From Chloranthus sessilifolius (taxonomy: Eukaryota > Streptophyta > Magnoliopsida > Chloranthales > Chloranthaceae): a stretch of 64,000 nucleotides of DNA. The stretch covers positions 69,148,671 through 69,212,670 of the forward strand of contig CM037598.1 in the NCBI GenBank assembly GCA_021018995.1. Reading direction: 5' to 3'. The notes beneath the pieces are model-generated. The model was given only the letters and a program-made list of their open reading frames with translations. It ran no database searches and was not told the origin of the DNA. Positions 4,168 through 60,219 of this stretch are shown here, piece after piece; the first letter of the stretch is position 1, and each line of letters starts with the position of its first letter. Position numbers and translations under genes: made by a program.

Positions 4168-4271
4168 CTAGAAGAATTCCTCAGGAGGAGGCTCTGACTG
4201 CTCAGTGGGCACGTAGTCTGAATCCCCTGGATCAAAGTCTCCAGAAGTCCTTGCTGTCGCTAGTCCTGGAC
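4168..4271 (-). CDS. Conserved acidic mini-exon in solo LTR S
   Basis: Directly after TATACGTCACAG (a 3' splice-site-like sequence), 104 nt stay open to TAG. Read so that the first two bases complete a codon, the peptide contains GDSDYVP, then EPPPEEFF, then stop. Length, phase and sequence match the copies in both LTRs of A (104 nt each), with related 92-122 nt versions in LTRs E, G and K. Function is unknown, and no upstream coding exon was identified. Confidence 0.55.
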
Positions 4272-4943
4272 CTGTGACGTATAGTCTAAGGGGGTGAGCT
4301 ACATCCTAGCTCCATAGGGAAACAAAAAGAACATATAGATTAACCTTCACATATATGTCAGCAGTTTAAAAAAATATATAAATTATCGGATAACACTTGT
4401 GGAAAGCAATTGAAATAACTGGAATAAAATAATGATTTCGATAGTTACTTTGCCTGGTTTTGTTTAATTTCCTTACTGGTTTAGTTGTGAATGCGGCCTA
4501 ATCACTTAAATCTTAACTTAAGTAGTCCCCGAGCAATATAGCATAGAGCCCCGATGGAATACCCACTATCGTCGTCTAACTAGACAGTTGTTATGTGTAT
4601 TCCCTCGGAATACTACCCAAGCCCCTTTCTCATAGGTGGCAGGGTTTATTCTCAAATCTACATCCCTGGGATGCACTATGAATATACGGATTGGCCGTCG
4701 TACCGGTCACGGATATCTTGTCGAGTCAGTCGTGGGTATCCCACCACGTCGGTGGAGTATTCTAATCAAACCTTAAATGATAAAAATATCGAATGTACTC
4801 TACATATAGTTATTTACTGTGATTGTGCTAATTTTATTACAGTAGGCCTTATCACATTACTTCCACTTCACTGTTAGTTTTCATCTGCATCCCGATGCCC
4901 CTGATTCAATTACATCATCCAAATGCCCACTTTATAATTTTTT

Positions 4944-4990
4944 AACGTGATAGTCATGAGGTCCCTTGGGGACCTCATGACTATCACGTT
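4944..4990. repeat. Perfect 21-bp inverted repeat with 5-bp loop
   Basis: Arms 4944-4964 and 4970-4990 are exact reverse complements around a 5-base spacer (cttgg). This is the strongest simple hairpin in LTR S, in the interval between its putative splice donor and acceptor. Confidence 0.95.
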
Positions 4991-5271
4991 TGAAACTTAC
5001 TCACACACCCTTTTTTCATAATGATCATGCAGTACTTTACTATTTAATTGGATTACACTACATATATGAATTGACGAAATAATACACATGTTCAAGAATA
5101 TTCCCTACCTCAACGCAACTCCAATGCACACTTTCTCGTAGAGGTTTACATGTCACGATCCCACGTCAAGCCTACAGTCCATGTGTTTAGAATATATTTA
5201 GAAGGGCCACGAGGATCATTGGAGCACATAGCCTCCATGTATTTATACTAAACTATCAAAATCTGTGTGGT

Positions 5272-5507
5272 GCCTCGCGCGAGCAAGCAAAATTCCTCGC
5301 TCGAGCGGTCACTTGACCTCGCTCGAGCTGTCTCTTTACCTCGCTCGAGCGGTTCAAACAAGATTGCTCGAGCGGTTAAAGCGAGCTCTACTAGAGACCT
5401 CGATCGAGCGGGCTTCCCCTTTGTTTTGGGTCTCGCTCGAGCGAGCCCAGAGCTAATTTTATATTCTATCCTCGCTCGAGCGAGCCAATTAGACCGCTCG
5501 AGCGAGG
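5272..5507. repeat. CCTCGCTCGAGCGAGG palindrome array in LTR S
   Basis: About nine copies of the palindrome or its CGCTCGAGCG core lie near 5273, 5295, 5318, 5339, 5365, 5398, 5431, 5470 and 5494, at irregular spacing of 20-40 bases. It lies in the LTR interval that also holds the arrays of A and E, but the palindrome is different. Confidence 0.85.
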
Positions 5508-6128
5508 AGCGGTCATTTTTAACTCCTCGATCTGATCGAGAAACTCTTTCTTCCTTCATTCAAACCTTGTCATCGTTAAAATCCATTCAACAACATCTTA
5601 TACATCATTTAAAACACCTAAGCATTTATCATGCGGTTTAACATACCTCCGTCGATAGGTATCGTATAATTTTGATCCGCGATTCAAAACTACACTAGAC
5701 GAAGAGATCTCCAAAGTTCCTCTCCAAAGCTCCTCATTCAACCCTTTTTTTTTCCTTCTCAGATAATTAGGTTTCGTATATGGGGAACCCCTCTCCACTT
5801 CATTCACTTATATAACTTTTTGTGAAAGTTAGTGTGTTTCACACACACACACACAAAGTGTATACATATTAGTTTTGGCTCCCTTGTGAACCATAAATAC
5901 CCGTGCATGGTACATGACATGCACGGTTCCCAAAATCTGGGGTTATGACACTAGCCATCAAACCCAACAAATCAATCCTTTAAAAAATTTATTGAGGTAA
6001 GTTTATTAGATTTTCAATACATAAAGATTTGATGAGTTTAATTCAGTCAAGTATAGTTAGAATGATAGATTAAAATTGAGAAGGAAAAGATTTGGAAGAA
6101 CAGCCCGAAAGGAGGCTGAATCTGGCTA

Positions 6129-6570
6129 AATCGATTAATCAATTTTGAGAATCGATTAATCGATTTTGGTCTAGAAGTTGAAAAGTCAAGGATGCCCGAT
6201 TTCGAGTAATCGATCTGAAAATCGATTAATCGATTTTGAAGGTCGATTAATCGATTTGGAAATTGATTAATAGATTTTGAAGGTTGATTAATCGATTTGA
6301 AAATCGACTAATCGACTCGGTACCTCCAGTGGCTGGAGAGAAAAGACTTGGGGAAATCGACTAATCGACTTTGGAGTTCGATTAATCGATTTGGGATCGA
6401 CTAATCGATTTCGAATTTTTGACTACTCGATTTGAGAATCGACTTTACCATTTTGGGGATTTCGATTAATCAATTTGGGATCGATTAATAGAGTTTGGAT
6501 TTTGATTAATCGATTTTGGGAATCGATCTAGGGTTCGATTAATCAATTTTGGGAATCGATTAATCGATTT
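6129..6570. repeat. AATCGATTAATCGATT palindrome array, 5' LTR of A
   Basis: About 15-20 exact or near copies of TCGATTAATCGA or TCGACTAATCGA occur in roughly 440 bases, often followed by TTGG. It lies after the donor-like GAG|GTAAG (5996) and before the acceptor-like TACGTCGTAG (7590). The 3' LTR has a shorter version at 16290-16620. Confidence 0.9.
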
Positions 6571-7590
6571 TGGCAGTTTCACTTAACTTCTTAATTAGAC
6601 CTTGAGGTTCATGGAGGGTCTAGGACCTTCTCCATTGTATCTTTAGTGATGTGTTGCATGTGTTATGATATACCATAAGTGGTACGTGGGAAAGCAAGCA
6701 TAAGGAGCTACGTGGGACCTTGATGCTTAGACCTTCAGTGACCTGAGGTAGGGAACACCTTGAATATGTACTTTAATTGCAAGAGCATGTATGTAGTGAT
6801 ATAGAACTCAAATTTGAAAATGTTTTAACTGTGTAAATCTTTGTAAAAAGGGTGCGTGTGTGACACCAAGAAAGTAAATGAGAATGAGGCATCCTCAGGG
6901 GATGAGAAAGTGATAAAGGCATCAGTGTGATGCGAGAAATTTAGACATCCCAGGGATGTAAGTAAGATTGAATAACTACTATTGAGGTCTAACTGATATA
7001 AGATAGCACGTTTACATGGTGAACAACTAAATGTAAAGCACATATTATTTTTATTATTTGAGGTTTGTTAGGATACCCCACCGACGTGGCGGGATACTAA
7101 CGACTGACTCGGTAGGATATCCGTGACCGGTACTGCGGCCAATCCATACACCAGTGCGGAGGTCAATCCGTACACAGTAAGCACATCCCAGGGATGTTGA
7201 GATAAGATTTAAGCCCGCCTCCTATTGAGAAAGGGGCTTAGGTCGTATTCCCAGGGAATACATATAACTACTGTCTATTTAGATGACAATGGAGGGTATC
7301 CCATCGGGGCTCGATGCTGTATTGCTCGGGGATTACTTAAGTTGAAGATTTAATTTTTGCTTTAGGCCTGTTCAGTGTCACTCATGATAAATTAACAGTA
7401 AAGTAAAATAAGAGAACTACCAGTAAATTTGAATGCAAACTACCATCTTTTAAACTATTCTTCTAGTAAGTGCATAGATACATCATGCTTAGAATATCAT
7501 AAAATATATGTGAGATTTTGATTTATATGTTCATTGTGTTGTTCTCTATTGAGCTAGGATGTAGCTCACCCCTTAGACTATACGTCGTAG

Positions 7591-7694
7591 GTTCATTATT
7601 AGCAACGGCCGAGGCTTCGGGAGACATGGATCTGAGTGACTCGGATTACGTGCCTAGGGACGAGTTGGAGCCCCCTCCTGAGGACTTCTTCTAG
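7591..7694 (+). CDS. Conserved acidic mini-exon, 5' LTR of A
   Basis: It starts right after TATACGTCGTAG and stays open for 104 nt to TAG, with phase as in the other five LTR copies. It contains GDMDLSDSDYVP and ELEPPPEDFF. A hairpin-forming TGAGCTA...TAGCTCA precedes it (about 7551-7569). Product and role are unknown. Confidence 0.55.
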
Positions 7695-8052
7695 GAGACT
7701 CTACTGTGTACTTTGATAGAGAGTCAGTTTTGAGAGCAGATTGTACGGCTTTGTATGTCAAGCCTTTATTTTGATAAACAATGTAATTATACTTTGATAT
7801 TCTTTTTGGCGAACCATCTAGGGGACCTGGTTGTATCACTGATGGTTCGGGCCGGTTCTTTTGTCCATACCTTGGCATGGAATGAGAACTGCTTTTGAGC
7901 TCTTCATTATAGAGAATAATATATTATTAATGCATGTTACTTGATTGGTTTTGCTTGCTATACCAATGTTCCGTACATAGCCCTGGGACACGGTCTGGAG
8001 GATCGTGCTGATGGCACAGGTTTTCGGGTGCCGAAATCCGGGCTGTGATAGT

Positions 8053-8064
8053 TGGTATCAAAGC
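8053..8064 (+). promoter_or_regulatory. Primer-binding site of element A (initiator tRNA-Met type)
   Basis: TGGTATCAAAGC begins two bases after the LTR end and matches the plant initiator Met tRNA 3'-end complement (TGGTATCAGAGC) with one difference. Confidence 0.8.
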
Positions 8065-8141
8065 ATTTTCTTTTAGAAATTCTGACAATCATTCTTTTGT
8101 CAGAGCATAGGGACTTCTGCTAAAGAAACCTTTGTTTTCAC

Positions 8142-9471
8142 GTGCAGACCGTTATGTTTCCTAGAGGAAGAGGCCGACCCAGGGGCGGTCATCATAGAAA
8201 TTTGTATAGTCGAGTTGATCTCATCTCGGATACCAATAGAGTACCTTTGAGAGATGGAGGTGCTTCAGGTAGTGGCAGTCAAGAGGGCCACGGTCAGGGA
8301 GAGAACCAAGATCGAGATCATCAAGATCAAGATCAAAGGGAATAGGTAAGGGTTAGAGAAAGGAATGAGGAGAGAGAGGAGCGTCAGAGGATGATGCATA
8401 CCATGGAGACCATGCGGCTGTCATGGCACAACAGGCAGCATCCTTGGCAGCTCACATTGCCCATGAGCAGAGTCATCCTCCTACGCCTCCAGTGGGGCCT
8501 ACACCTCCAGTGGCTTCAGCGTTTACTGAGTTTAGGAGGATGAGACCTCCTAGATTTTCTGGACAGGGAGAGCCCATGGTGGCGGAGCATTGACTGAGTG
8601 AAATGGAAAAAGTCTTCAGTGTGTTGACGTGCACGGAGGACGAGAGCGTCCGTTGGGCAGCCTACATGTCTACATGTTAGACAGAGAGGCTAGGCCTTGG
8701 TGGAAGTCTGTTTCATGAACTAGGGCTCAGGAGACTCCAGATTTGCCCTGGACGTGGGATGAATTTGTTGAAGAGTTCAACAAATAGTACTTCCCAGAAG
8801 TTGTGAGAAATCAGATGGAGATCTAATTTTTGCAACTCGTGCAAGGGAAGATGACAATGAGAGACTATGGAGTGGAGTTCATGCGACTCGCTCGCTTCGC
8901 GCCCGACTATGTTGTCACGGACATGATGAGAGCGAAGAAGTTTCAGTAAGGGTTGAGACCGAACGTGAGGGGAGGAGTAGCACCATTCCAGATGAGGACC
9001 TATGGAGAGGTTATGAGCAAGGCCTTGGTAGTAGAGGAAGAAAATAATAACAAATATCACCAGAGAGAACAGCAAGAAAGGTGGAATGTGGACCAGAGCA
9101 GAACGGAAAACTACAAGCCGGTGAACAAAAAGCTGAGATTCGTAGCAGGCAACCAGAGACCACCATTCTAGGGAGGTTATGGGAGACCGGCGTAGCAGAG
9201 CAACCAGCAGAGATTTCCATTGCTCGCGTCGGGGAGATCGATACGCTACGAGAGCCCTGCTATCACTATCGAAGCTACAGTTACACAAGGTGTTTCTCGA
9301 GCAGCTTCTTCCACACCTCGTGAGACTTGTGCCAAGTGTGGCAAGCCTCACAAGACAGTGGACTGTAGGATGGGTACTCGGGATTGTTTTTTATGTGGCA
9401 AGGTGGGCCACCTGATCAAAGATTGCCCCGAGGTGAACAAAGGGAAGACGGCTTCAGCTCCTATGCTATGA
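8142..9471 (+). pseudogene. gag region of element A
   Basis: It begins with an Arg/Gly-rich N-terminus (MFPRGRGRPRGG-like) and ends with two zinc knuckles near 9328-9430 (CAKCGKPH...C and CFLCGKVGH...C). It would encode the structural capsid/nucleocapsid polyprotein. The reading frame is broken in several places. An antisense open frame at 8713-9351 is a shadow. Confidence 0.8.
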
Positions 9472-9599
9472 CCGATACCAACAAGGAAGTCGATCGTCCA
9501 AGGGAGAGCCTACGCAGTCACAGCTCAAGAGGCTCAAAATATAAATGATGTGATCTAAGGTGAGATTTCTTTTAAATAAATAATTTCAATTCTTGAAAA

Positions 9600-11390
9600 C
9601 TTTAGATAGAGAAGGTGCATCCATATACGAGGAGATCATGGTTAACCCGTGATCGTGAGAATCATGGATGGAGACGTCTTTGAACTACATGCGAACCTAA
9701 TTCTGTTAGACATGTAAGGATTCGACGTGATCCTTGGCATGGATTGGCTGTCGACTCACTGTATGACGGTAGATTGCAAGAACAAGGTCGTCATCTTCAG
9801 ACCCAATACGAGGAGATCATTTCGATTTCGAGGAGAGAGGTCGACGCATATGCCACTTATCTCGGCAGTCAGAGCCGAGTGTTTGATCAGAAAAGGGTGT
9901 AGTGGATACTTGGCATTCTTAAAAGAGCATAAAGAAGAGAAGAATGTTATCTCTGAGATAGCCGTGGTGCGAGAATTTGAAGATATATTTCTGGAGGAAT
10001 TACCAAGATTACCTCCAGAAAGGGAAGTGGAATTCGCCATCGACTTAGCACCAGAAACGGAGCCTGTTTCTAAAGCACCATATCGAATGGCTCCTACTGA
10101 GTTGAAGGAATTGAAGGAGCAATTACAAGAGCTAATGGAAAAGGGGTTTGTTAGACCGAGTGTGTCTCCATGGGGAGCATCGGTCTTGTTTGTAAAGAAG
10201 AAGGATGGGTCAATGCGGCTATGCATTAACTATCGGCAATTGAACAAACTCGCTATTAAGAATCGATACCCTTTGCCTAGGATAGATGACTTGTTTGATC
10301 AACTGTAAGGAGCGAGGTACTTTTCCAAGATCGATATGAGATCTGGATACCATCAGTTGAGAGTCAAGGCAGAGGATATTCAGAAGACTGCATTCAGGAC
10401 TCGGTACAGACACTATGAATTCCTAGTGATGCCGTTTGGGTTGACAAATTCCCGAGCGTCATTCATGGATCTGATGAATAGGGTGTTTAAACCACACCTA
10501 GACTCTTGTGTCGTAGTGTTTGTTGACGACATCCTGATCTATTTAAAATCAGAGGAAGAGCATGAGAAGCACTGGAGAATAGCCCTACAGACTCTACGTG
10601 AACACCAATTGTACGCCAAGCTCAGCAAGTGTGAGTTTTGGTTAGAAGAAGTTAGCTTTTTGGGACATGTCGTCTCAAACCATGGTGTCACTGTAGATCC
10701 AGCAAAGATAGAAGCAGTGGTCAATTGGGAGCAACCAAAGTTCGTGACCGGCGTCCGTAGTTTCCTTGGATTAGCGAGTTACTATAGACGTTTTGTAGAG
10801 GGGTTTTCAAAGATATCAGGACCACTCACGAGACTCACATGGAAAGACGCAAGGTTCGAATAGAATGAGGCATGTGAGAAGAGTTTTCAAGAACTCAAGA
10901 AGAGACTCACTTCAGCTCCAGTATTAGCGATTCCTTCAGACAGTGGAGGGTTCGCAGTATACAGCGATGCTTCGTATAGTGGGTTAGGTTGCGTGTTTAA
11001 TCAACACAGAAAGGTGATAGCATATGGATCAAGACAGCTGAAAGAGCACGAGAAGAATTATCTGATACATGACCTGGAACTAGCACCGGTCATTTTTGTG
11101 CTGAAGATTTGGCGACATTACTTGTACGGTGAGACTTTCGAGATTTTTATCGATCATAAAAGCCTCAGATATCTGTTTACACAGAAAGATCTAAACATGT
11201 GGTAGCGCAGATGATGGAGTTCCTCAAAGACTATGACTATTCTATACAGTACCATCCAGGCAAGGCTAATGTAGTAGCAGATGCCTTGAGTCGGAAGGGT
11301 TCAACTCAACTAGCTAGTTTGATTTTGGGTATGCACAAATGGAAGTTGTTTGAAGATCTGGCACTGTATGATGCGAATATTGAGTCGTAA
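9600..11390 (+). pseudogene. Protease, reverse transcriptase and RNase H region of element A
   Basis: The protease C-terminal hallmark VILGMDWL lies at about 9730. RT runs from about 9950 to 10860 with [32 protein letters not shown] and the catalytic FVDDIL at about 10520. RNase H follows (YSDAS near 10960, ending near 11300 with ADALSRK). Domain order and motifs are those of Ty3/Gypsy chromoviruses. Several breaks are present. Confidence 0.88.
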
Positions 11391-11405
11391 GTCACAGGAG
11401 CCTTC

Positions 11406-12860
11406 TTGGCTAATATCTCAGTGAGACCGGTGATATTTGAGCATATCCACGAGCTACAGATGAAAGACCCAGCGCTAACCAAGATTCGTCAAGATGTAAC
11501 TGAAGGCATTAGATCTGAGTTCTCGGTCAAGGAGGATGGTTCCTTATTGTTCAAGGGTCGTCTCTGCATTCCGGACAATGCTGATCTACGGTGAACAATT
11601 CTTGATGAATCTCACAAATCCAACTATGCGATTCACCCGGGTAGCACAAAGATGTATCAGGACTTGAAAAAGAATTACTGGTGGAGAGGCTTGAAGCCAG
11701 ACGTGGCAGAGTACGTGTCACGGTGTTTGACGTGCCAACAAGTAAAGATCGATCATAGACACCCTGCGGGATTATTGCAGCCTCTACCTATACCGGAATG
11801 GAAGTGGGAATCGATCTCTATGGACTTCATCATTGGGCTACCGCGTACTGCAAAGAGGTACAATACCATTTGGGTAGTGGTCGATCGATTGACCAAGTCA
11901 GCGCACTTCTTGCCTTACAACACGATGTACACGGTGGGAAGACTTGCAGAGCTATATATGAAAGAGATCATCCGTTTACATGAGATTCCGAGTAGCATTA
12001 TTTCCGACCGTGACCCATTATATACATCAAAGGTTTGGAAGAAATTTTAAGAAAGAATGGGAACGCGACTAGATTTTAGCTCAGCATTCCATCCACAAAC
12101 CAATGGACAGACGGAGAGGGTCAACCATATCATCAAGGACATGCTTAGGGCATGTATGTTAGAATTGCAAGGATCATGGGATCAGCACCTACCATTGATT
12201 GAGTTTGCATATAACAATAGTTTTTAGACGAGCATCGGCATGGCACCATATGAAGCTCTTTATGGACGGTGATGTAGATCGCCCAACAATTGGGAAGAAA
12301 TCGGGGAGAAATTTGTTTTAGGATCCAAAATACTTGAAGATAATGCCACCTATGTTCGTATGATAAGGGTAAAACTCAAAGCAGCTTAGACCAGACAAAA
12401 AAGCTACGCTGATATCAAGCGGACGAGTGTAGACTTTAAGGTGGGTGAACATGTGTTCGTGAAAGTGTCACCTATGAAGGGGGTGATGAGATTTGGAAAG
12501 AGAGGGAAGTTGAGTCCCCGCTATCTTGGACCATTTGAGGTTCTAGGTCGAGTAGGGAAAGTTACCGCATTGGATTGTCACCGTTATTTGATCAGGTACA
12601 CAATGTGTTCCACGTATCTATGCTCAGGAAGTATCTTAATGACCCTGATCAAGTGTTGAGCGGCAAATCATTTGAGATGAATGAGGATATGAGCATGATC
12701 GAAGAACCGACAAAGATTTTAGATCGAAAGGAATAAGTGTTGCGGACAAAAGTGATTCCATTAGTGCTTGTTCGATGGAAGAATCATCCAGCCGAAGAAG
12801 CTACGTGAGAACGAGAGGCCGACGTGAAAGAACAGTATCCAGACTTGTTTGCGACAGCTT
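11406..12860 (+). pseudogene. Integrase and chromodomain region of element A
   Basis: The zinc-binding part (CLTCQQVK near 11730) is followed by the catalytic core (MDFIIGLP near 11820, ISDRDPLY near 12000, then an FHPQTNGQTERV-like stretch near 12090). The C-terminal GKLSPRYLGPFEV stretch lies near 12500. At 12690-12860 a chromodomain-like tail (VRWKNHP, EATWERE, QYPDLF) matches Tekay/Del. Such tails direct integration to particular chromatin. Several breaks are present. Confidence 0.85.
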
Positions 12861-13128
12861 GAGAGTCAAAATTGTATCGCCGCAAGCATGTTTGTAGATA
12901 TAAACCATGTGTTGTAATACGATGTGGACCTTTGATCAATATATGCAGTAGAGAGAATTTTGATCCACACCGTGTTCCTCATTACGGTGTTAAATGCATA
13001 GTTGAGATCCATCGTTGCCAAGAAATGACTATGAAGTCAGGCTTCCCAAAATCAATGACCAACTGGTCATGAGTTATCCAGAAAACAAAAGAGAGAAAAA
13101 AAAATAACAAAATTGTGAAAATCTGATC

Positions 13129-13631
13129 AAAATCGATTAATCGATTTGGGAATTCTATTAATCGATTTTGGTCGATTAGTCGACTGGCATACGCCAGTGA
13201 GTGAAGATTAAATGGAGGTTCAGAAAATCACTTAAGTGTGATTTCGATTAATCGATTTGGGGATCGATTAATCGATTTTGGTTTTTGATTAACCGAAATT
13301 GAGATTCGATTAGTCGACTAAAACATGTTAATGACTAGAGAATTTTAAAAATATTAAGGACCTTACGATTTTGATTAATTGAAGTGAAATTCGATTAATC
13401 GATTTGGGAAATCAATTAATCGATTTGGGAAATCGATTAATCGACTGGCACACGCTAGTGACCTCAAAAAGTTGAAATTTTAAGTGACCACGATTTCGAT
13501 TAATCGAAATAGATTCGATTAATCGATTTTGAGTGTCGATTAATCGATTTTGGAAATCGATTAATCAATTTCTCGTGGCTGAACTAAGTTTTTGAAACTC
13601 GATTAATCGATTTTAGAAATCGATTAATCGA
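13129..13631. repeat. Second TCGATTAATCGA palindrome array of A, upstream of the extra ORF
   Basis: At least 12 copies of the palindrome also found in A's LTRs lie in 500 bases and end 8 bases before a TATA box. The interval holds no ORF. Its presence outside the LTR, next to a separate promoter, is the key point. Confidence 0.9.
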
Positions 13632-13638
13632 ATTGGGC

Positions 13639-13652
13639 CTATATATATAAAT
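13639..13652 (+). promoter_or_regulatory. TATA box of the extra ORF in element A
   Basis: CTATATATATAAAT lies about 230 bases before the ATG at 13878, followed by a leader containing the TTAGGGTTTTTG word typical of plant 5' UTRs. It suggests a transcription unit separate from the LTR promoter. Confidence 0.6.
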
Positions 13653-13877
13653 CGAAGGGGGATTTCTCCCCATTTGATAATTTTAGGGTTTTTGTTCTTA
13701 CGCGTCACTTCGTCTTCCTCCTCGAGCTATCATACCAGCTAAGGTTTTGGGAGTTTTGGATCGATTTCGGATCGAAATCGCTTGCCTTTGGAGCAAAACC
13801 TAAGGTAAAACCCTAAATTTCAACTTTCTTTTCATTTCAAGCCATTAAACCCTAGTTTTTTCATATTTCCCACCAAA

Positions 13878-15430
13878 ATGCTGCCTCGAACTCGCTTAAC
13901 CTCGAAGAAAGCGACTTCGAAGCTCCCAGTCCGGCGTAAGAACGCCACACCACCACCACCAACACCATCACCCGTAAGAGCCCCATCCCCGTCGTCATCA
14001 GATACCACATCCGGTTCGACAAGCGTGTCGTCACGCGAATCTACATCGACCATACCACCACCACCAGCCGACATGTCCCAACCAAATGAATGGTGGGCCG
14101 TCAAGACTTTTGAAAATGAATACATTATTGATGACAATTTGTTTACCGACCCCGACGTCGAAGGCGAGACCAATTGGGCTAGGAATTATTTGGTCAAAGT
14201 GGGCCTCGACAACCTGTTAAAGCCACTCCATGGGTGCTATTACCCTAGGCTTGTACGCCTATTTTACCAGGGCTTGGAGGATGGCCCAACTGATGACATA
14301 ATTATGACCAAGATCGAGGGTCGTGACTACACCTTCACCCGTCGCCACCTTCACGAAGCCCTCGAGTGTTATTTGGACTTCGTGCCTGTGACCACCCTCT
14401 TCCCACCATTTGCGGAGGAGGTGAGATTTAAAGAGATTATGACTCAAATGACCAATGGGAAGAAGGGGTCCGGATCGTCCATTCCGAGGGTCGATCTGCC
14501 CCATTATATGTGGATGCTTAATTCTATCATCAAGTGCAATCTCTACTCGATGCGTCATGACACCAAGAGGGTAGAGTTGATTCAATAGGCCCTATACGCA
14601 GCATTCTGCGGCCGTTGGTTCGACGCCACCATGATCGTTTTGGAGGGGATGAGATATATAAAGGGGAAGTTGATGAAGGGTCATTTGAGGCCCAAGGAGA
14701 AGATGTCGTATGCTCGCCTCATTTCGAGCATGCTGGAGTGTTATTCCGATGCCCCAGGATGCGCCGTCTCGCCCCATGAGGAGAAGGCTACGGACCGTGT
14801 GAAGCACTACTCCATCACTTCATGGGGTCATAGTTATATAGATTGCTGAAGAGGACCCTACCAGCTCAGGGCCTAGCACTAGCAGCAGCAGCAACATCAC
14901 TAGTAGCACCACCGCCACCCCCACCACCACATCAGGACCCACCTGTGGGGGGAGCACACCCCATTGATCCACCAGCTGAGGGGGCACCCTCCCATACCAC
15001 CGCATCGCCTATGCCACCGTCGCAGTCAGCGGCTGCCACACCCACTTCTTCATACCGCCGATGAGCGACTCGCCCGGCGCCTACTATTAAGGACGTGTTG
15101 GCTCGGATGGAGGTCAACAACTAGCGGATGAACCGGCGGATGAACTTCTTGATGTACCACACCCTGCGGTACATCTATCCGTTGGACTATCAGCAGCATC
15201 TTGCGCAGGAGGAGGCGTGGACTGTGGGCCGAACCGCTTTTCACTCGGGTGCAACTTTTCACGTGAGTGCCTCTGCTGTCAATGCATCTGGCTCGGTACC
15301 CCAGTAGCCAGAGCAGCCTGCTGAGACGAGTCAGCCACCACCTGCTGAGACAAGTCAGCTGCCGCCAGCCTAGACAGAGCAGCCTGCTCCAGCACCAGAT
15401 CAGCCTAGCGAGGGGACGGCGTGAGGTTGA
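13878..15430 (+). pseudogene. Extra ORF of element A: putative plant transposon protein domain (PF20167-like)
   Basis: The first open block (13878-14588, 236 residues) starts with a basic, Ser/Pro-rich segment. It is followed by a domain with the pattern seen in putative plant transposon proteins: a Y-P-x-L-V-R-x-F-Y block (CYYPRLVRLFYQGLE), then IEGRDYTFTRRHL, then LPHYMWMLNSIIKCNLYS. Downstream sequence to about 15430 continues the similarity (RWFDATMIVLEGM) and then turns Pro-rich. Such extra ORFs are known in plant Ty3/Gypsy elements, and their function is unknown. The region has its own TATA box and palindrome array. The start is the first ATG after the leader. It is broken in a few places. 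Family assignment is from memory of motif patterns. Confidence 0.65.
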
Positions 15431-15952: not shown

Positions 15953-15990
<38 letters not shown>

Positions 15991-17636: not shown

Positions 17637-17740
17637 GTCCATTGTTAGCAGCGGCCGAGGCTTTGGGGGACGTGGATCCGGGTGACTCGGATTACATGCC
17701 TGGGGACGAGTTAGAGCCCCCTCCAGAGGACTTCTTCTAG
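17637..17740 (+). CDS. Conserved acidic mini-exon, 3' LTR of A
   Basis: It runs 104 nt from TATATGTCGCAG to TAG and contains GDVDPGDSDYMP and ELEPPPEDFF. It differs from the 5' LTR copy by several substitutions but keeps length, phase and openness. Confidence 0.55.
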
Positions 17741-48725: not shown

Positions 48726-48764
48726 CCGTGCTAGAAGTAGGACGGCTTGGGATGATAGGTAGTG

Positions 48765-49660
48765 TCAAAGTCTTTGAGTAACCCAAACGAGTGCCAAGCA
48801 TGCTTTCTGCATATGAGAATAGCGCGTCTCGTAATCAGTGAACTTCTTGCTTAGATAATAGATGGCCCGCACTCTTCTTCCTGTCTCATCATGCTGTCCT
48901 AACACACAGCCCATGGAAAACTCTGTTGTGGACAGGTACATTATCAGGGGTCTATCAGGTACGGGGGGTACCAATACCGGAGGTTTCAGGAGGTAACCTT
49001 TAATCTTGTCGAGTGCAGCTTGGCAGCCATCATTCCATTCAATCAGTGAGTCCTTTCTCAGTAATTTGAAGATTGGTGCACATATCGGAGTTAACTATAC
49101 GATGAATCGGCTGATGTATTGGATTTTGCCTAAAAAGCCTCTGACTTCCTTCTCTGTAGATGGTGGCGGCATTTCAGTGATGGCCTTGATCTTGGTTGGA
49201 TCGACCTCAATCCCTCTTCTGCTGACAATAAAGCCCAACAACTTTCCTGACATAGCGCCGAAGGCGCACTTCTGGGGGGTTAATCGCAACCTATACTTTC
49301 TCAATCTCTCGAATAGCTTCTGAAGATTTATCAAGTGGTCCTCCCTTTCTAGTGATTTGGCACACTTCAATCTCTCGGTGCATCATGTCGTGGAACAGGG
49401 CCATCATTGCTCTTTGATAGGTTGCCCCAGCATTCTTCAGCCCGAATGGCATTACTTTGTAGCAGAAGGTTCCCCAGGGGTTAATGAACGCTGTCTTCTC
49501 GCGATCAACCTCTGCCATCTTTATCTGATAGTATCCTAAGAATCCATCCATAAATGAGAGCATTCCATGCTTTGCAGTGTTATCGACCAGGATATCGATG
49601 TGGGGTAGGGCCATGCTCAAAATCGGCAAATTGCTTGAGGAGCTCATTGGGGAGCTCATC
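48765..49660 (-). pseudogene. Reverse transcriptase and first RNase H of element H
   Basis: RT signs: FMDGFLGYYQIKM, VMPFGLKNAGATYQRAM near 49440, then RLTPQKCAFGAMSGKLLGFIVSRRGIEVDP near 49230. RNase H: LIMYLSTTEFSMGCVL. The N-terminal part of the RT is not evident, so the domain appears incomplete. Confidence 0.85.
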
Positions 49661-49911
49661 GGTTTGACCTTCCTCGTCCAGACTCGTGACTCCTACCTCT
49701 TCTTGTATTTCTACAGGAAAGGGGTCGGCATCACGTGGGACGGGTATCACGACATCAACTTCAATTTTATTGGAAATTTTAAAGGACAATATTTTTGGAA
49801 TTGGTATTTTTTTTATTTTTATGGTCTTTTGCATTTTTTCGGAGGTCAGCCCCTGGCGAGGTGGATCTCTATATATACAAGGTAGAGTGGTCCAGAGGCT
49901 AACCTCACTTT

Positions 49912-51471
49912 TTACAGGTTATTTTTTTTTGGGGAGTCGGTGCCGTTTTCACGGTATTTGGCGGCTCCCAGGAGTTGGGGGAAGGATGCCCAGTTACTCA
50001 CCTGCGAGGCTTGGCCTTTACCTCTTTGATTGGGAGCGGCATCGGTAGGCTCTTGCAGTTCCTCCCTCAACATATTTACAGAGGGATCCTCTGGGACCCT
50101 GTCCTCTATGGTTAGGATGGGCCTAGAGTGGCTGGTGCTGGAGTGATGGGTGGATCGGGAAACTTCTTCCTCAAATAAGGAAAGGGCGGCTAAGTCCATT
50201 TCGAAGTCTGGGGGGATGATGTAGGGATTGGTGGGGTGGATTGAAGTAGGCTTATGTGGGGTGACCCTTGTCTCCCCATTTAAATCAATTTTTACTACCC
50301 CGGTGCTCACAAAGGTTTCACGAATGTGGGGGTGAGCGTGAGGTTCCTCTTCCAAGATGATTCCTCTGGCCTTGGCGACTGCTGCGGCTCTCATCTTTTC
50401 CTTGGCCTCTCTGACTTCTTCTTCTCTGGGCCTGTAGCCTAAGCCAGATTTAGTTTGTTGCCCCTTGGCCTTGACGGGGTCTCTTCTTCCTTGGAGGCGT
50501 GGGCCCAGCCCTTTCCCTTTTTGATGGCCCCATCTGTGGAGCATGAACACAGCTGCGCCCATTCCTCCTCCAGTTTTATCTGGGGTCTTTTCAGTTGGTC
50601 CGAGGGAGACGGCTGAGAAGTCATACTCGAATTGGTGAAGGTTGGCATTCTCTGTTGTGTGCGATATGTTCAACACTTTCGGATTCTCAATGTGCAGGGT
50701 GCTTCTTTTCCTGTCTTCTCTGCTTTCGCCCAAGATGGTGACAATTTTTCCTTTCGAGATGAATCAGAGCTTTTGGTGCAGGGTAGATGGTATTGCATGT
50801 ATCCATGGCCGGTCCAATAGCAGATTGAAAGTAGACTTGATGTCCATCACCTGAAAGGGGGTGGTGAAGGTTTGCAGCCCGAGGATTAGGTCGAGGTCTA
50901 CTTCTCCTATGATTTCTCTTCTGGTGTTGTCGAATCCCCGGGCGCTTGATATGGATGGCCGGAAGGTGTCGGGGTTTGCCCCAATTTTGATTGCCGTCCT
51001 TAGAGGGCATACGTTCAATGCCGACCCATTGTCGATTAGGACCAACGGCACCACCAAGTTTCCTACTTCCATTGTTATATTCAAGGGCTTGGAGTGGTCA
51101 TTCCCCTCGATCGGTAGGTCCGCATCTATGAATGAGATGGCATTTGGGGCCAATACTTGCCCTATTATCTCTCCTACTTCATCTGGAGTTACGTGGGTGG
51201 AGACATGTGTGTCCTTGAGTGCTCCCATTAGGGCTTGGAAGTGGAGGGGGGACATGATTAACAAATCCCACACAGTAATATGTGCAGGTGTTCTCTTGAG
51301 CTGCGTCTCTAGTATGTGCTCTCTGGCCATTTTTTCAAAGGGATTGATTCCCTGCGGCCTGTTCTTTCTTTCTCTCTTCTCCTCTAACGACCCCTGATGC
51401 TTTCGGCTGTGTAGAAATCTGGCCTGACCGGGTAACAAATTCGATAGCCTCCTCTTGGTTGCACCCGGCAT
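49912..51471 (-). pseudogene. Protease and G-patch region of element H
   Basis: The aspartic protease motif VPLVLIDNGSALNVCPL lies near 51040 (retropepsin D-N-G-S-A form usual for Tat elements), followed by LLLDRPWIH near 50800. A G-patch (GMGAAVFMLHRWGHQKGKGLG, about 50566-50470) follows downstream. G-patches are glycine-rich RNA-binding motifs often adjacent to retroviral-type proteases. Confidence 0.75.
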
Positions 51472-51481
51472 TCATGTCTGC

Positions 51482-52420
51482 CTATTCATAGCTTAATGGC
51501 ACTTGATGCGGGTCATAGGCAGGTTTTGGGATAAGGAAAGGAGTACATGGTAATTCTGGGGAGGATTGGGTTGGACACGCCAGTTTCTCAGGTCCTATCA
51601 GGTTGACTCCAGTAGGGGGCAAAATGGTAGTGGCGGGAATTGGCGGGGTTGAATCTGTGGGTGCTGGGGGGGCTTGTACAGGTATTGCCTGGGCTTGGTA
51701 AGACCAGTGGTGATTGGGAGCAGGTGAGAAGGGGATGGGGTGAGGGTTTGCTTGCTTGGGTGGCGGTGGAGTTGGGCTGGGGTCAAAATAACGAAGGGAT
51801 GGCGGGAGTGTGACTGGGATGGAGGGATGGGGAGACATCTGAGGAGCGGGGTGATAGGGATATGAAGGGTTTGTATATGGGGTGGCATGGTGGGATGATG
51901 ACGGATTTGTGGATGACATATGGTAAATTAGAGGTGATGGAGTGGTGCATGGAGCGGGATGATTGGGACATGGCGGGGTAGTGGGTGGAATAGGGGGATG
52001 TGAAGGGTTTGTGGTATGGTGGGATGATGATGGGTTTATGGATGAAATGGGATAGATTGGGGATGATGGAGTTGTGCATGGAGTGGGGTGATTTGGGGGT
52101 GACGGAGGGGTGTATGGGGTAAATTGGGTGGTGGGATTTGAAGGTGTGTATGGAATGGGATAACTTGGGGATGGCGGAGTAGTGTATTGGGTGGAGAGAT
52201 TTGAGGGTGTGTATGGGGTAGGATAATACATGGGGATGTGTGTGTGGGGTGATTTGGGTGTGATGGAGGGGTGTATGGGGTAAATTGGGCGTGGGGTGGA
52301 TAGGCGTATGATTGCGGCGGGGCTGTGCCCGTTTGGATTTGATAGGTGGGAGTAGGGGTGGAAAAATACTACCCTAAATCTAAGGGCTCCTCTTGGTATG
52401 CCGGTGTGGGGAAATAATCA
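51482..52420 (-). pseudogene. Pro/Ser/Thr/His-rich linker of element H
   Basis: A low-complexity region with repeated P-S-x-P-x-P and TPYTPPSP-like words, arising from degenerate GGGATGG/GTGTATGG DNA repeats on the plus strand. It lies between the gag zinc-binding end and protease. No domain is recognised. Confidence 0.55.
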
Positions 52421-52659
52421 GCCAGATACAACGGCTCGATCACCCCAACAAATAGTTCATCTTTGTTCGACCTGGGGAGTGAAAATTCCTCCTGATTACT
52501 GATATAATTCGAAGGGTTAAACTCTTCTTCTTCCTCTTCTATCCAATGAATGTTAGGCCTGGGACCTCCTGGGTGCGGTGGCAGGGGGGCTTGATGGATA
52601 TTTTGGTTCTACCCTTGAGGAAGTGGCGGGGGAATGATTTTTCTCGCCTATATCAGATC

Positions 52660-53613
52660 TTAGACTGCGTGCTTTAACGGGAAGCACCGGTCCGTAGGGT
52701 GACCCGGTCCCTGGTGGAAATTGCAATGCAAATTCGGGTCATAGTTTCTTAGTATGGGATGGGGTGGTGGGCAAGGCTGGAGCAGATTGACCAAGCCTTT
52801 TTGTAGCAACACTGGCAACAAGACACTCAAGGATTGCCCCAATGGTGTGAACACTCGTTCGAACCGTGCTTTCATCTGTTCCTGGGTAAACGGAGCTCTT
52901 GGTCCGCTGCTTGGCCTTGGTACTTGCTCGAAACGGGCCGGGGGTGGTTGTGTAACCTGGAGCTGTATCGGGGGGGCATTGGTATTGGCCTGGGGGTAAA
53001 CAATGTTTTGTACCTCCGTCCCTGGTCTTCTTTTAATTCTTAGTTCGGCAGCTTTTCGAACCCCGGTGGCCCCGTTGGCCACATTCCTTCCTAACCTGCC
53101 CTCTCTAATAGCGTCTTCATAACGATTGGCATTTCGGACCAGATCAGCAAAACTAGACTGCTGCTGATAGACTAAAAAATCTGCGTTGACTGGGAGGGCT
53201 CCTTTGGTTATCAATTCAATTTGCTCATCATCAGGAATCCGGTGAGTTACCTGAGCAGCCAATGCCCTCCACCTTCCCAAGTAAGCACTGAATGTTTCAT
53301 CATGTCTTTGCTTTAAACGGGCCAAATCAGACTTCCTTGGCTCTATGTCCATGTTATAGACATATTGCTCTTGAAATAATCATGTCAGATCTTTCCAATT
53401 TTTTATCATGGATGGTTCCAGGGATGTGAACCATCTCAGTGCTGGGCCCATTAGACTTTTTTGGAACACTTTGATGAGGAGTCGTTCATCTCTGCCATAC
53501 TGGCACATATCCCCACAGTAAGATTTTAAGTGGGCGATGGGGTTGCCAGTGCCGTTATGCTTATCAAATGATGACATCTTGAATTTCTGTGACAGGGGGA
53601 CATCAGAGAACAA
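52660..53613 (-). pseudogene. gag capsid region of element H
   Basis: The Retrotrans_gag-like core has YCGDMCQYGRDERLLIKVFQKSL, ALRWFTSLEPSMIKNWKDL, RLKQRHDETFSAYLGRWR and the C-terminal zinc-binding CNFHQGPGHPTDRCFPLKHAV. These are typical of Tat-type gag. Broken at least once. Confidence 0.85.
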
Positions 53614-53874
53614 ACATAAGTCTTAAAAGTCTGTTGAATGTAGTTCTATTCCTCCCATCTTCATCAGTTGCTTTTGTATTCTGTCAATTTGTTCTTTCAA
53701 CTGTTCTGGTTCTTTTGAGGCTGTAGTGGGGACTGCTTCCCCCTGATTTTGTTCGACCCTAGGTGTGATGATGGTGGGCTCGGGAGGGTTGAAGCTGGCA
53801 ACTCCTCCACTGTTGCGGATTTCATCCTCCTCATACAGTTGGTCATGGTATTGGTGAGGGGCGATTTCTGCTAT

Positions 53875-55391
53875 TTAGACTTGGGGGGTGAGGGGTTGGA
53901 GGACCTGGTGGGGCCATATGGTTTGTAAGGGATGAGAAGGGATAAATGGGTGAGCGTTTTGTGGGTAAGTGATGTGCTGAGTTGGGTGCACATTCTGGCG
54001 GTGATGGGGGTGTGGTTGAGGTGGCGGGATGTTGTGGGTTTGAGGAATGGGTTGGATTGGATTTCCCATTGGAGGCGGGATGGGGGCGTAAGGGGTATAG
54101 GTGAATGAAGGGTACTGGTGGGGGGGTATGGGGTTAGTGAATGGGCCTTGATGAGCGTGGGTGGATGGGCCTTGGGTTTGAGGGATTTGGGTTTGATGGT
54201 TTTGGAAGGCTTGGATTGATGGGCCTTGGGCTTGGGTGTGGGGGTTAGTATGACTTTGGGCCACTGGGCCTTGTTGGGTTTGGGCTAATGGGTCATGAGG
54301 GGGTTGGGTTTGGATCTGAGCCTGATGGGCTTGGGTCCATGGGCTTGGGCTTGGGCTTGATAGGTTTGGGTCCAAAGGCCCTGGGGGGTTTGGACTTAGG
54401 CCTGGTTCTGAGGGGTTTGGACTTGGGCCCATGGGTTTTGAGGGTTTCAAGTCTGGGCCTGAGCCTGATGGGCTTGGGTCCATGGGCCTTGAGGATTTTG
54501 GGCCTGGGTCTGATGGGCTTGGGCCTGGGCTCATGGGTTTTGAGGGTCTTGGGCCTGGGCGTGATGGGCTTGGACTTGGGCCCACGACTCTAGAAGTGTT
54601 TGGGCTTGGGCCCATGGATTTGTATGGGTTTGGGTCTGGAATTGAGGCGGGAGATTTTGGGAGGTATGGACAATGGGTGGTTGGGCATGGTTAAGAGGGA
54701 ATGGGGTATGGAGGTTTTGGAGACTTGGATGCGAGGTTTGAGATGTAGGGTTTCGAGAAGCAGCCCACAGGGCGTACATCGTTCTCATGTCCTCCATTGA
54801 GGGCATGGATTCAAGTGTGAGATTGTGGGGTGATGGCTCACTTAAGGATGGAGGGGGTTGGGAGAAATTGGGCATGACCTGGGTAAATGGGGGGGTATGT
54901 TGGGATGTGGATGGGCCAGGTGGTGGGAATGGTATGTGAGATGAGGTGGATGGGATGTGGGATGTAGGGGGCATGGATGATGAGAGGGATGGAACGTGGA
55001 AAGTAGGCGAGGGATGGGGCTCCCTGTGGGGCCTTTGGAAATATGGGGATGCGGTAAGGGTGTTTGGATGGGAGATGGGGATGTATGGATCGGTTGGGAA
55101 ATGAGGGGTTTCAGTAGGGGATGAAAAGGGGGTATGTTGGGAGAATGTGAGGGAGGGGGATGGGGTGGATGTGAACACGGGTGCCCCAAAAGGACCCGTG
55201 ATATTGAACCGGGTTTGGGCGAAGGTGTCAGAGATCGGGTCTTCTCCTACGTGGGAATGGGATGGGGACGACGGTGGGGACGTATCGGCTCTTGACATGA
55301 TCCATTGACGAGTATTGTATCGATGTTGGGGATAAGGGCCGAATACCTTCCTTCTATGGGACGAGTTTGAGGTTGCCGTAGTGACAGTCAC
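53875..55391 (-). pseudogene. N-terminal Pro/Ser/Gln-rich gag part of element H
   Basis: It begins MTVTTATSNSSHRRKVFGPYPQHRYNTRQW, then long stretches of SPSP, TSHIPSTSSH, SGPDLKPSKPMGPSPN and QAQ repeats from a GGGCTTGGG/GGGTTTGG DNA repeat. Such N-terminal extensions occur in Tat gag. Its function is unknown. Confidence 0.6.
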
Positions 55392-55865
55392 ACCAAAATA
55401 TACTTTTTTTTTATTTTCTTTTCTTTTTTGTGTTTGTTTTGTTTGTTTTTGTTTGGAGTTTTTTTTTTTTTTTTGAAGAGAGATTTTTTTTGGGTTTTTT
55501 TTTTTGAAGATGATATATTTTTTTTTAGATGGAGATTAACTCCCCTTTGCTTAGATGAATAATGACCTAGTGCCCAGGGTCAACTCCAGTCTCGGGCGAT
55601 ATATGTACCTTTAGTAGGTCCCACGGCGGGATCCGATACACTTCGAAAGAGGCGAAAGGGAACCCTTTCGTTCTATTGAAGGTGCGGGAATCCACGCAAA
55701 CGACCCGATCCCCCGGAGCAAATCAATGAGAAGTCGCCTTCTTTTGATTGGGCGGGGGCATGTTGGGTGTTAGAGGATGTGGGAGGCTACTGCGGGCACT
55801 AATACCGCTAATCGGGGACTTGGGGTGATGGATTGGGCCTCAGGTCGGGTTGCTGTGGCCCAGTA

Positions 55866-57509: not shown

Positions 57510-57524
57510 CTCTATTTATAGAGA
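57510..57524 (-). promoter_or_regulatory. TATA box of the H LTR
   Basis: TCTCTATAAATAGAG on the minus strand is a strong plant TATA box, 270-480 bases downstream (element sense) of the palindrome array. Confidence 0.7.
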
Positions 57525-57788
57525 AGGGATGGGTTAGGGGCTTGCTTAAGAGCTAATGGGTTTAGCAATTAGGTAATCCCCCATCTAAGGTTTTCTAGGT
57601 TTTCAAGGTCCTAGGGTTTTGGGGAAACTGATTTCAATGGCAGATGATGGGGTGAGACCAAAGGTGACTTAAGGGTTGCCAATAAGCTCAAAGGGGGTGC
57701 AACCAATCTCAAGACACCCACCTTAACTAAGGGGATGGTCAAAGGGTCAAACTAGATGAAGGAAATTCGAACAATGATGATTCAAGCT

Positions 57789-57999
57789 AGTAAGCGTATA
57801 TATTATATCGCCCATTTAGAACGATAAATTTCTAAAAACAAGGGAGCCTTGGGAAGATGAAGCCCGTGGTGGGTCCCACCTATGCTGGGCATATATATTA
57901 TATACGCTCGGCCAAATTTCCCCCAAAATAGGCAGGCATATATAATATATACGCCTGACTAATCTGGGGCTAAATTGGCTGGGCGTATGTAATATCCAC
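57789..57999. repeat. H palindrome array 4, in the LTR U3
   Basis: Four worn copies (about 57790, 57890, 57935, 57980) of the GGGCGTATA/TATACGCCC palindrome with GGCCAAATTT-like spacers, the same motif as arrays 1-3. Confidence 0.88.
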
Positions 58000-59545
58000 T
58001 CTTGAGCAAAATTTTTATGATTTTATGTGAAACTTCAATCGGCCATAACTTTTGAACCGTAGCTCCAAATTGGGTGGTCTTTGGCTTGTTAGAAAGCTGG
58101 AGAAGTCCTCTTTCCAATGGTATATGGCTCATCCTTGGTAATAGTTTGTGTAAAATTCTGTAGCTACCCTCCCATCAACTGCTCAGAAAGGTTCAAGTTA
58201 GGTATGGGCAGGGAATCTCGGGTTTAGGGGTGATCTCTTAGGGTTGGGGAATGGTTCTAAAGGGTTCAGGGTGATTCCTAAAGGTCTGGGTGGATTCCTA
58301 CGGGTTCAGGGGTGCCATTGGAAGCACAGGGGTACATCTCTCCCGAAGTACAGATTGATTGGGCCTTGGGCCAAATTTGGGTGTCTACAATATGATAAAT
58401 TCCTAACAATGAAGGTATTTTTGGATGCATGAGTACACGTACAAGCAAATACAAGTAAGCATGAGTAAAGGTAGGGAGTTTACCTTACTAATCTATATGT
58501 TATTTTCTCACTCTCGTTTGATTGCAAGTTATGGAGGATGCCCATATATGATCATGAATGCTTATATAACTTTATACCCAAGCCAGTTTTATATAGTGTA
58601 CTACAAGTTCATGTCAGTTTTAGTCATGTGATATAGTTTTAGTCATGTGATATAGTTTACTATGAGGTTAGTCAATAAGTGGTTACAGATGACTATGGCA
58701 GTTTAGTCTTGATGGATCATTAAGGATAATAGATATCAGTTTTGATGTATGTTTTGCATGACTACTCAAGTCAATTTTGAGTTATGATTATGATAGGTCC
58801 AGATTCGACGTCTGATTTTGTATGGATATGCTATAGTTAGTTTTTTTTTCGCATCTTGGATAGTATATGATATATATACTTATTTTCGTTTAAGAAAATG
58901 TTAAATTCGATATATTGATATACATGTAAGGCTATACGTCTGATGTTCTGCTGTAAGGATGCTAGTAATATATGCATCTACTGTGATTGCATGCTTATGA
59001 TCAGATCACCTCGGGTATGCTAGTTAAGTGTAATTTGATGCATGCTTATGATCATCAGATTAGTTTGATGTATGAGCGTATGCTAAATCAGTTTTAAAGA
59101 TGATATATGATTATGAGCATATCAGTTCCATAAGATAAGCTTGACATATGTTATTATGTTTGGAATATTGTCAAATCAATTTAGATGACTTGATATAGAT
59201 CAGTAGATGAATATGTATGTATGATGATACTAGATGAATTTAGACGAAGTATAATGTATGCACGTGCTAGTTTTCAATATATGACTATGACTGATGATGT
59301 TAGATCAATTTAGAGAGCTTCAGACTTGATATATGCTTTACATGATTATGATGCTAGTTCAGCTTGAATACATGAATATCAATGATTATGATAATTGCAG
59401 TCATATATGATCATGTGAGTTCAGCTATTCAAATCAGTTTTGCTATATGATATCTGTTCATGATATTGTTGCATACATGTTAGCATGCATTATTCATGTA
59501 CTGTTATCCTTGATGTCATGTACACGTCTTTATTCTCGTCTTGAA

Positions 59546-59801
59546 ACAAGTGATCCCGCTAACTCGGGAGCTTGATATCTCATCCAAGTAATTCCGCTAA
59601 CTCTAGAGCTTGATATCTCGTCTAAGTGATCCTGCTAACTCGGGAGCTTGATATCTCGTCCAAGTGATCCTGCTAACTCGGGAGCTTGATTTTTTCGGTC
59701 CAAGTGATCCCGCTAACTCGGGAGCTTGATTTTCTCTGTCCAAGTGATCCCGCTGACTCGGGAGCTTGACAAGTGACCCCACTAACTCGGGAGCTTGATT
59801 T
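59546..59801 (+). repeat. Seven copies of a ~38 bp unit in LTR G
   Basis: The unit is CAAGTGATCCCGCTAACTCGG followed by GAGCTTGATATCTCGTC. It contains an imperfect inverted core CCCGCTAACTCGGG. Copies vary in the tail. Confidence 0.92.
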
Positions 59802-60127
59802 TCTTATTTCTTGAATATGTCTTGTTTCAGTATGATTTCTATAATTGTCCAACATGATTCCTTGTTAGTATGATTCCTCGTATTTGTTCAGCATGAATCT
59901 GTCAGCATGATACAATATTTGCATAATTTATTGCTTTTTATACTATATGTTGCTAGAATAAATACTAAATGTTGCTAGAATAGATATAAGGTAAGATATA
60001 ATGTGTTTAGTTTTATCATTTATGCATCTAGAAGTGAATTGGAAATCTAACTTATAAAGTAGCACTTTAAATGTCCTTGCTGAGCTTTGATGATAACTCA
60101 TCTTACGACTTCATGTCTTAGCTGCAG

Positions 60128-60219
60128 ATATTGACTGTGACCCTGAGCACGAGACTGATCCTACCTACCAGCCTGAGGAGGACGAGGAGGAAGGTTCTAC
60201 TGAGGACTTATTTCCTTGA
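60128..60219 (+). CDS. Conserved acidic mini-exon in LTR G
   Basis: It is 92 nt after CTTAGCTGCAG, in the shared phase, strongly acidic (PEEDEEEGSTEDLFP-stop). It preserves the D-P...Y-x-P-E-x-E layout of the other copies. Confidence 0.5.

Follow-up and report, generated by a model that had tools for sequence, protein, structure and literature searches.

A candidate spliced terminal exon in the long terminal repeats of Tekay-like retrotransposons of Chloranthus sessilifolius

In a 64,000 nucleotide stretch of Chloranthus sessilifolius DNA (contig CM037598.1; 'the window'), the long terminal repeats (LTRs) of Ty3/gypsy retrotransposons carry a short open reading frame (ORF), rich in acidic residues and directly preceded by an AG. 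With moderate confidence, we read this 'acidic exon' from its sequence features as the 3'-terminal coding exon of spliced messages in a Tekay-like lineage, which would supply an acidic tail for an accessory protein and/or Gag. The exon is confirmed as real and as more than a product of chance; it is coding-like, and probably a spliced terminal exon.

Six copies are present, in five LTR families: the element E1 supplies two and the others lie in a solo LTR nested in E1 (E2), in two further LTRs (L3 and L4) and in a second element, E60. A preliminary description of this DNA had counted six LTR copies in five different families. The count holds, with the correction that the copies at 7591 and 17637 belong to the 5' and 3' LTRs of one element, E1. 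When the window was re-read, the coordinates, the lengths (in the order below 104, 104, 104, 92, 122 and 92 nucleotides), the preceding AG and the phase (the first codon takes its last two bases from the exon) were all correct. The copies are:

4168 to 4271, minus strand: acidic exon of E2
7591 to 7694, plus strand: acidic exon, E1 5' LTR copy (33 amino acids and stop)
17637 to 17740, plus strand: acidic exon, E1 3' LTR copy, the one that might serve as terminal exon
19871 to 19962, plus strand: acidic exon of L3 (LTR ends near 20302; splice-site region 19832-19870)
37488 to 37609, minus strand: acidic exon of L4 (LTR ends near 37128; splice-site region 37650-37610)
60128 to 60219, plus strand: acidic exon, E60 5' LTR copy (LTR ends near 60515; primer binding site (PBS) at 60518; splice-site region 60082-60127)

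Exon copies and their codon-level evolution

The acidic frame is open up to its stop in all six copies. The other two frames contain 0 to 6 stops (none in frame 0 of the 60128 copy). A blind scan of both strands of the window was performed for an AG followed by a phase-fixed ORF of 24 to 60 codons with at least 22% aspartate and glutamate (D+E), an excess of acidic over basic residues of at least seven and a closing stop. With these thresholds, chosen after the six copies were already known, the scan returned eight stop-clusters: the six known copies and two in a minus-strand retroelement region (48 to 55 kb). The same scan of 40 Markov randomisations of the window gave a mean of 0.53 clusters and a maximum of 3.

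The exon recurs elsewhere in the same genome (2.17 Gb, 32 contigs). With an integrase-tail query, 150 places were scored of 21878 first-look candidates, and 20 loci were fetched (8 kb each, from the integrase tail into the 3' LTR); with an E1-type LTR query, 40 were scored of 8687. The exon passes the scan on the plus strand in 13 of the 20 fetched loci, free of internal stops in 12 and with one stop in L052. Both ends could be placed in ten loci: in nine the exon follows the pol end by 4.8 to 5.4 kb, and in the tenth, L048, by 3.6 kb. Among the seven loci in which it fails, one has a stop in frame (L044), one is broken on the plus strand (L041), two are without most of the LTR stretch (L051 and L055) and three have none (L042, L050 and L057). 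The closing stop may also be shifted: L043 and L049 read beyond its usual place and L054 ends early. L053 carries an exon of the E1/E2 type, possibly from a nested LTR. For one subfamily, the exact acceptor and exon start occur at 230 places genome-wide. No external relatives were found in IMG/VR or in GTDB contigs.

Twenty exon copies (six in the window, twelve in the fetched loci and two in nested LTRs) were assembled. Fourteen of these were arranged in seven disjoint, hand-chosen pairs, and only columns in which both copies are in the same codon phase were counted. Exon differences at codon positions 1, 2 and 3 number 29, 32 and 61 (203, 202 and 203 sites, respectively), a third-position share of 61/122 (p 1e-4). 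For the same pairs the flanks are flat, with 109, 97 and 117 differences in the 200 nucleotides upstream and 104, 103 and 98 in the 200 nucleotides downstream. A previous count for the exon, over nine pairs that partly overlapped, was 43, 37 and 78. Because the changes concentrate at third codon positions and those of the flanks do not, the exon evolves as protein code. Between E1 and E2, the proportion of synonymous differences (pS) in the acidic frame is 0.57 to 0.68 against 0.21 for nonsynonymous differences (pN), a ratio not seen in either of the other frames. Ten of the 17 alignment gaps inside exons are multiples of three, and the other seven occur in L043/L054 and L3/L4.

The protein-level selection on a short LTR-encoded exon that had been proposed earlier is supported by the third-position excess (missing from two of the seven pairs), by pS exceeding pN between E1 and E2 and by the recurrence of the exon in the same genome. 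The accompanying statement that the surrounding LTR has diverged far more is not borne out: identity over the seven pairs is 0.80 in the exon and 0.76 in the 200 nucleotides on either side, and an upstream LTR block (6992-7353) is 77% identical between E1 and E2, above the 69-72% of the exon. It is the codon-position pattern, not the level of identity, that distinguishes the exon from its flanks.

Putative 3' splice site and candidate donors

Alignment of the window copies reveals an inverted repeat around GAGCT...AGCTC ahead of the AG, imperfect in the E1 3' copy and E60. Its right arm passes into a branch-site-like CTCAY in five of the six copies and into CTAAC in the E1 3' copy, the branch-site-like A being about 19 to 27 nucleotides ahead of the last base of the AG. 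CTCAY in this position is a plausible plant branch site and, with the AG, agrees with what a U2-type terminal exon would require. The proposed 3' splice sites of E1 are:

7551 to 7590, plus strand: inverted repeat GAGCTA/TAGCTC and CTCAC, then AG, E1 5' LTR copy
17597 to 17636, plus strand: the corresponding region of the E1 3' LTR copy, with CTAAC replacing CTCAC

The preliminary description gave all six copies one acceptor-like motif. This applies to E2, L4 and the E1 5' copy, which have TATACGTC in common, but the E1 3' copy has TATATGTC, and L3 and E60 are more divergent. Across the deepest family splits, BLASTN alignments extend, relative to the acceptor, from -70 to +7 (E2/L4), from -58 to +260 (L3/L4) and from -80 to +55 and then +165 to +272 (L056/L3). 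Exons gathered by the scan carry the AG by construction.

No ATG is common to the exon copies and the exon must therefore be entered from elsewhere, via a phase-1 donor; the preliminary description named no exon upstream of it. In the mechanism that we propose, a minority of transcripts would be spliced, with a phase-1 donor at the end of an ORF joined to the acceptor in the 3' LTR. The exon would add roughly 26 to 46 D/E-rich residues, often ending in FF, FFPK or similar, and then a stop, and the spliced message would finish at the poly(A) region of the LTR itself. Full-length unspliced RNA would remain the genome and the template for reverse transcription. For E60-like loci that have an accessory ORF, the donor would most likely be at the end of this ORF, and the acidic tail would thus go to the accessory protein; the intron would measure about 2.5 to 3.2 kb and contain the polypurine tract (PPT) together with the part of the LTR before the acceptor. 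In E1-type elements, the donor at the gag end is in phase, and Gag or a Gag variant would be tagged. As a guess, the tail might give an accessory protein a nuclear/chromatin or RNA-handling function.

The sites concerned in the window are (a slash marks the donor position):

9556 to 9565, plus strand: E1 gag-end donor-like site TAAG/GTGAGA (GT at 9560), phase 1; the preceding codon is a stop in E1
13878 to 15424, plus strand: E1 3' accessory ORF with frameshifts and stops (open piece 13878-14588; end judged to be 15424; GT at 15421, phase 2)
63120 to 63134, plus strand: E60 pol end, stop codon 63124-63126, then donor-like G/GTACAT (GT at 63128), phase 1

Many E60-like loci include an accessory ORF between pol and the PPT, with about 440 codons from ATG to donor and often broken by stops. 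It occurs in both lineages: the E1 piece 13878-14588 is 35% identical to that of L055. Two of five pieces match PF20167 below an E value of 0.001 (L055, 8e-6; E1, 4e-5), all matches being under the Pfam cut-off. A third (L052) gave PF20167 at E 0.025 and a stray Vinculin match, L050 and L058 gave nothing, and a PDB search with one piece returned no match. The end of the ORF was located in 16 of the 20 loci; its phase is 1, as read from translation in 13 and judged from homology in the other three. A GT is present at 14 of these 16 ends, having been lost in L043 and L057. The end could not be located by motif in L039, L041, L045 and L048, and in L048 the ORF would not fit. In the four loci scored with textbook donor weights, the place of the accessory-ORF donor among the GT sites of its locus is first (L044), second (L050), fourth (L051) and sixth (L055). 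In most of the ATG-bearing loci among L039-L058, a GAGGTAAAA-like site occurs about 60 to 70 nucleotides upstream of the accessory-ORF ATG; it is also found in E1 (13803-13812).

In the E1-type family (L082-L085; window 15410-15430), a GTGAG overlapping the stop of the accessory ORF marks the end of this ORF, in a phase unlike that of the E60-like loci. This donor was ruled out for E1-type elements on phase, as judged from the frame read in E1. Because its GT is phase 2, a single donor does not account for both lineages.

For the E1 type, the GT at the gag end is the second-best of the 410 GT sites in E1. Exact genome-wide copies of the E1-type G/GTGAGA have a sense codon before the donor in 160 cases and a stop in 20, E1 being among the 20. 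Two other sites in E1 were ruled out: a donor at the gag N-terminus (CAG/GTAGTG), absent in L008, and GTAAGG at 8346, absent in L006 and L008. Nor was the gag end of E60's small-gag family used as support: a stop stands at that point in 12 of 15 fetched copies, and GC or another dinucleotide takes the place of GT. An in-phase donor-like site is present in each of the two lineages, which leaves a small number of candidates for the partner of the exon.

Some further features of gag were observed. An acceptor-like site, TTTTGACAG or similar, stands immediately before the gag ATG (L074-L077), as if the 5' leader held an intron. The gag/pol spacer of the E60 family is short and intron-like (61527-61685; L059-L073), with donor-like AAAG/GTGCAT and acceptor-like TATCCAG, and its pol side is phase 1. 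The gag of E60's own family (L074-L078) has about 240 codons and several CCHC knuckles, with no capsid part recognised by eye. This family may be a non-autonomous or strongly derived lineage.

A more general scheme, which we regard as possible though doubtful, would be modular. Here, phase-1 donors at the gag end, at the accessory-ORF end and behind the pol stop would all feed a single LTR terminal exon and provide a common acidic C-terminal tag. The exon would be duplicated at each integration, and solo LTRs would constitute ready-made acidic terminal exons for host genes.

Alternative explanations

Several observations weigh against a spliced terminal exon. Every exon copy comes from this single genome. 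No spliced-junction copies were found in it for the accessory-ORF junction (one mismatch allowed), for the accessory ORF with upstream AG or for the pol end, compared with 230 for the unspliced acceptor; since the junction patterns fit just one exon subfamily and spliced copies are rare by nature, zero matches are weak evidence. Among seven E1-type copies aligned (with L003 unmatched), the AG is lost from its place in L006 and L008. Two of the seven exon pairs show no third-position excess (E60/L048, 5, 5 and 4; L3/L4, 5, 8 and 7) and overall exon identity hardly exceeds that of the flanks. The E1-type accessory-ORF GT is phase 2 and overlaps the stop in five of five copies. When donors were scored with textbook weights (in L044, L050, L051, L055 and E1), the pol-end site, although behind a stop codon, was the top donor-like site in three of the four loci (L050, L055 and L051). 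Finally, E60 and its LTR relative L048 (74%) have only about 160 and 350 nucleotides, respectively, between pol end and PPT, and thus no accessory ORF, yet keep an open exon. Families of this kind would use another donor, or their exon would be a relic; the flat E60/L048 codon pattern fits a relic and rests on 14 differences. The earlier proposal that the exon is spliced stands in part: the branch-site-like motif and the in-phase donors fit, while the zero junction matches and the different in-phase donors of the two lineages do not, and splicing is something that we infer.

One alternative involves the pol-end donor: a site behind the chromodomain would be joined to the LTR exon and the integrase would become acidic-tailed. 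To compare pol ends, 50 loci were aligned; four were not found, collapsing duplicates left 42 distinct rows, and L011, L020, L030 and L045 were set aside as misaligned, leaving 38. A donor-like G/GT follows the last pol codons in 33 of the 38, in phase 1; besides its high scores, it is present in E60, which is without an accessory ORF. However, a stop codon immediately precedes the donor base in all 38 (TAA in 30, TGA in five and TAG in three), so that an integrase tail would require readthrough on spliced RNA, and E1-type pol ends have no GT at this place (four of four). We have consequently set this possibility low, as very unlikely. The same stop-adjoining donors at the pol end, and at the gag end in some copies, would suit a real junction with an untranslated exon, in which ORF-end donors splice out a kilobase-long 3' untranslated region and so avoid nonsense-mediated decay, the acidity deriving from a purine-rich exonic splicing enhancer. 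E60-like exons are indeed rich in D and E codons. But E1/E2-type exons are less so and still have pS well above pN, the third-position excess is accompanied by flat flanks, and a stop closes the frame in all six window copies; we judge an untranslated exon to be unlikely.

A shade less likely again is a conserved regulatory stretch of the LTR (promoter, poly(A) region or RNA hairpin), with neither splicing nor protein and a coincidental acidic frame. What still aligns across the deepest splits is the region around the inverted repeat and the AG, and both the zero spliced copies and the two pairs without a codon pattern speak for such a stretch; the pooled codon-position test and the blind scan argue against it. 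The least probable of the explanations considered is a small gene wholly inside the LTR, with a first exon upstream in the LTR, expressed from solo LTRs too. It would not depend on the accessory ORF that E60 lacks, the exon is retained in the solo LTR E2, and upstream LTR blocks are conserved (E1 6992-7353). Solo LTRs, however, retain any LTR sequence until it decays, and no conserved ATG-bearing ORF with an in-phase donor was noticed upstream in the LTRs, which were read by eye with no systematic search.

Host elements, related systems and significance

The remaining features of the window are:

3404 to 18093, plus strand: E1, a Ty3/gypsy element with gag, pol and 3' accessory ORF (RVT_1, Integrase_H2C2 and RVP_2 matches)
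3399-3403 and 18094-18098: target site duplication of E1, CATGT
3404 to about 8050, plus strand: E1 5' LTR, interrupted by E2; PBS at 8053
About 15667-15679, plus strand: E1 PPT
About 15680-18093, plus strand: E1 3' LTR (2.4 kb)
3812 to 5950, minus strand: E2, solo LTR (2.1 kb) within the E1 5' LTR, flanks CTAGT and CTAGC
63290 to 64000, plus strand: E60 PPT (about 63290-63304) and start of the E60 3' LTR, which leaves the window
43602-44786: ORF with a plant mobile domain (PF10536, E 1.4e-16)
48153-55535, minus strand: a further retroelement with Retrotrans_gag and RNase H-like pieces and long proline-rich ORFs

The empty E2 insertion site is visible at 16087 in the E1 3' LTR. No PBS adjoins L3 or L4. 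Behind its PBS, E60 consists of a degraded internal part, a chromodomain-like tail, the PPT and the beginning of the 3' LTR.

Assignment to a Tekay-like lineage is suggested by the RVT_1, Integrase_H2C2 and RVP_2 matches of E1, by the chromodomain of L055, a relative of E60, and by where pol ends with respect to the PPT. The chromodomain (PF00385, E 2.7e-6) was found at the integrase C-terminus of L055, the single tail scanned; the E1 and E60 tails are alike by eye. Both this domain and the pol stop precede the PPT (recognised by its motif in 11 of the 20 loci) and the 3' LTR. A pol stop in this position is described as a feature of the Tekay clade in PMC3605345. Pol does not continue into the LTR as in the CRM type: each of the 38 aligned pol ends has its stop immediately after the chromodomain. 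The gag frame closes, in the E60 family with the intron-like spacer before pol and in the E1 type behind the donor; the copies are old. The PBS of these elements is presumably of the tRNA-Met type.

In animal retroviruses, coding sequence in the 3' LTR can be reached by splicing, for example sag of mouse mammary tumour virus and nef of human immunodeficiency virus. These are ORFs with their own ATG, whereas here there is a terminal exon alone, without a shared ATG.

The Tekay/Del chromoviruses (REXdb; Beta Bongo3; sunflower Tekay) resemble the present elements in the chromodomain behind the integrase, the long LTRs and a pol that ends before the PPT. An additional ORF is already known in this clade (the 5'aORF of sunflower and grass Tekay; PMC11728184), but a term search of the main text of that paper finds neither 'splic' nor 'intron'. 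In CRM (the CR motif in the 3' LTR) and some Reina elements, protein is coded inside the 3' LTR without splicing (PMC3059260, PMC3605345). In those elements the pol frame stays open into the LTR. In the present ones pol stops upstream, and the coding stretch is found 2-3 kb within the LTR, after the proposed 3' splice site. Partial splicing of plant Ty3/gypsy RNA is known from Ogre and Bagy2 (PMC6317226, PMC7264820), and aORF/env-like elements such as Bagy2 resemble ours in having an accessory ORF after pol and ahead of the 3' LTR. Splicing in Ogre, however, joins GAG-PROT to RT-RH-INT, and the sections available describe no LTR terminal exon for Ogre/Bagy2-type elements. In the plant element EVD (ATCOPIA93), splicing yields a subgenomic Gag message, shGAG (PMC8892269), but this is a Ty1/copia element and the message is ended by premature cleavage and polyadenylation rather than by an LTR exon. 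A further parallel is Cer1 of Caenorhabditis elegans. The spliced accessory protein of this LTR retrotransposon, CERV, shares gag exons, has a separate last exon and is needed for export of unspliced genomic RNA (PMC10309623); the available text describes no LTR-encoded exon.

No account of a plant LTR that harbours a spliced terminal coding exon was found in the literature searched, which was covered largely at the level of titles and the beginnings of abstracts, with most subscription papers outside it. The accessible text of ten papers likewise contains no such description (PMC6317226, PMC3605345, PMC3059260, PMC7730604, PMC11728184, PMC7264820, PMC11963269, PMC8892269, PMC1142308 and PMC10309623).

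Plant Ty3/gypsy LTRs are mostly regarded as regulatory, except in CRM and some Reina elements, where pol reads in. If our interpretation is correct, present annotation would miss the C-terminus of an abundant element protein. Every insertion would copy a 3'-terminal exon, complete with splice site and stop, and leave it behind in solo LTRs. The exon would also provide a concrete handle on how elements with a single transcript divide their RNA between genome and messages.

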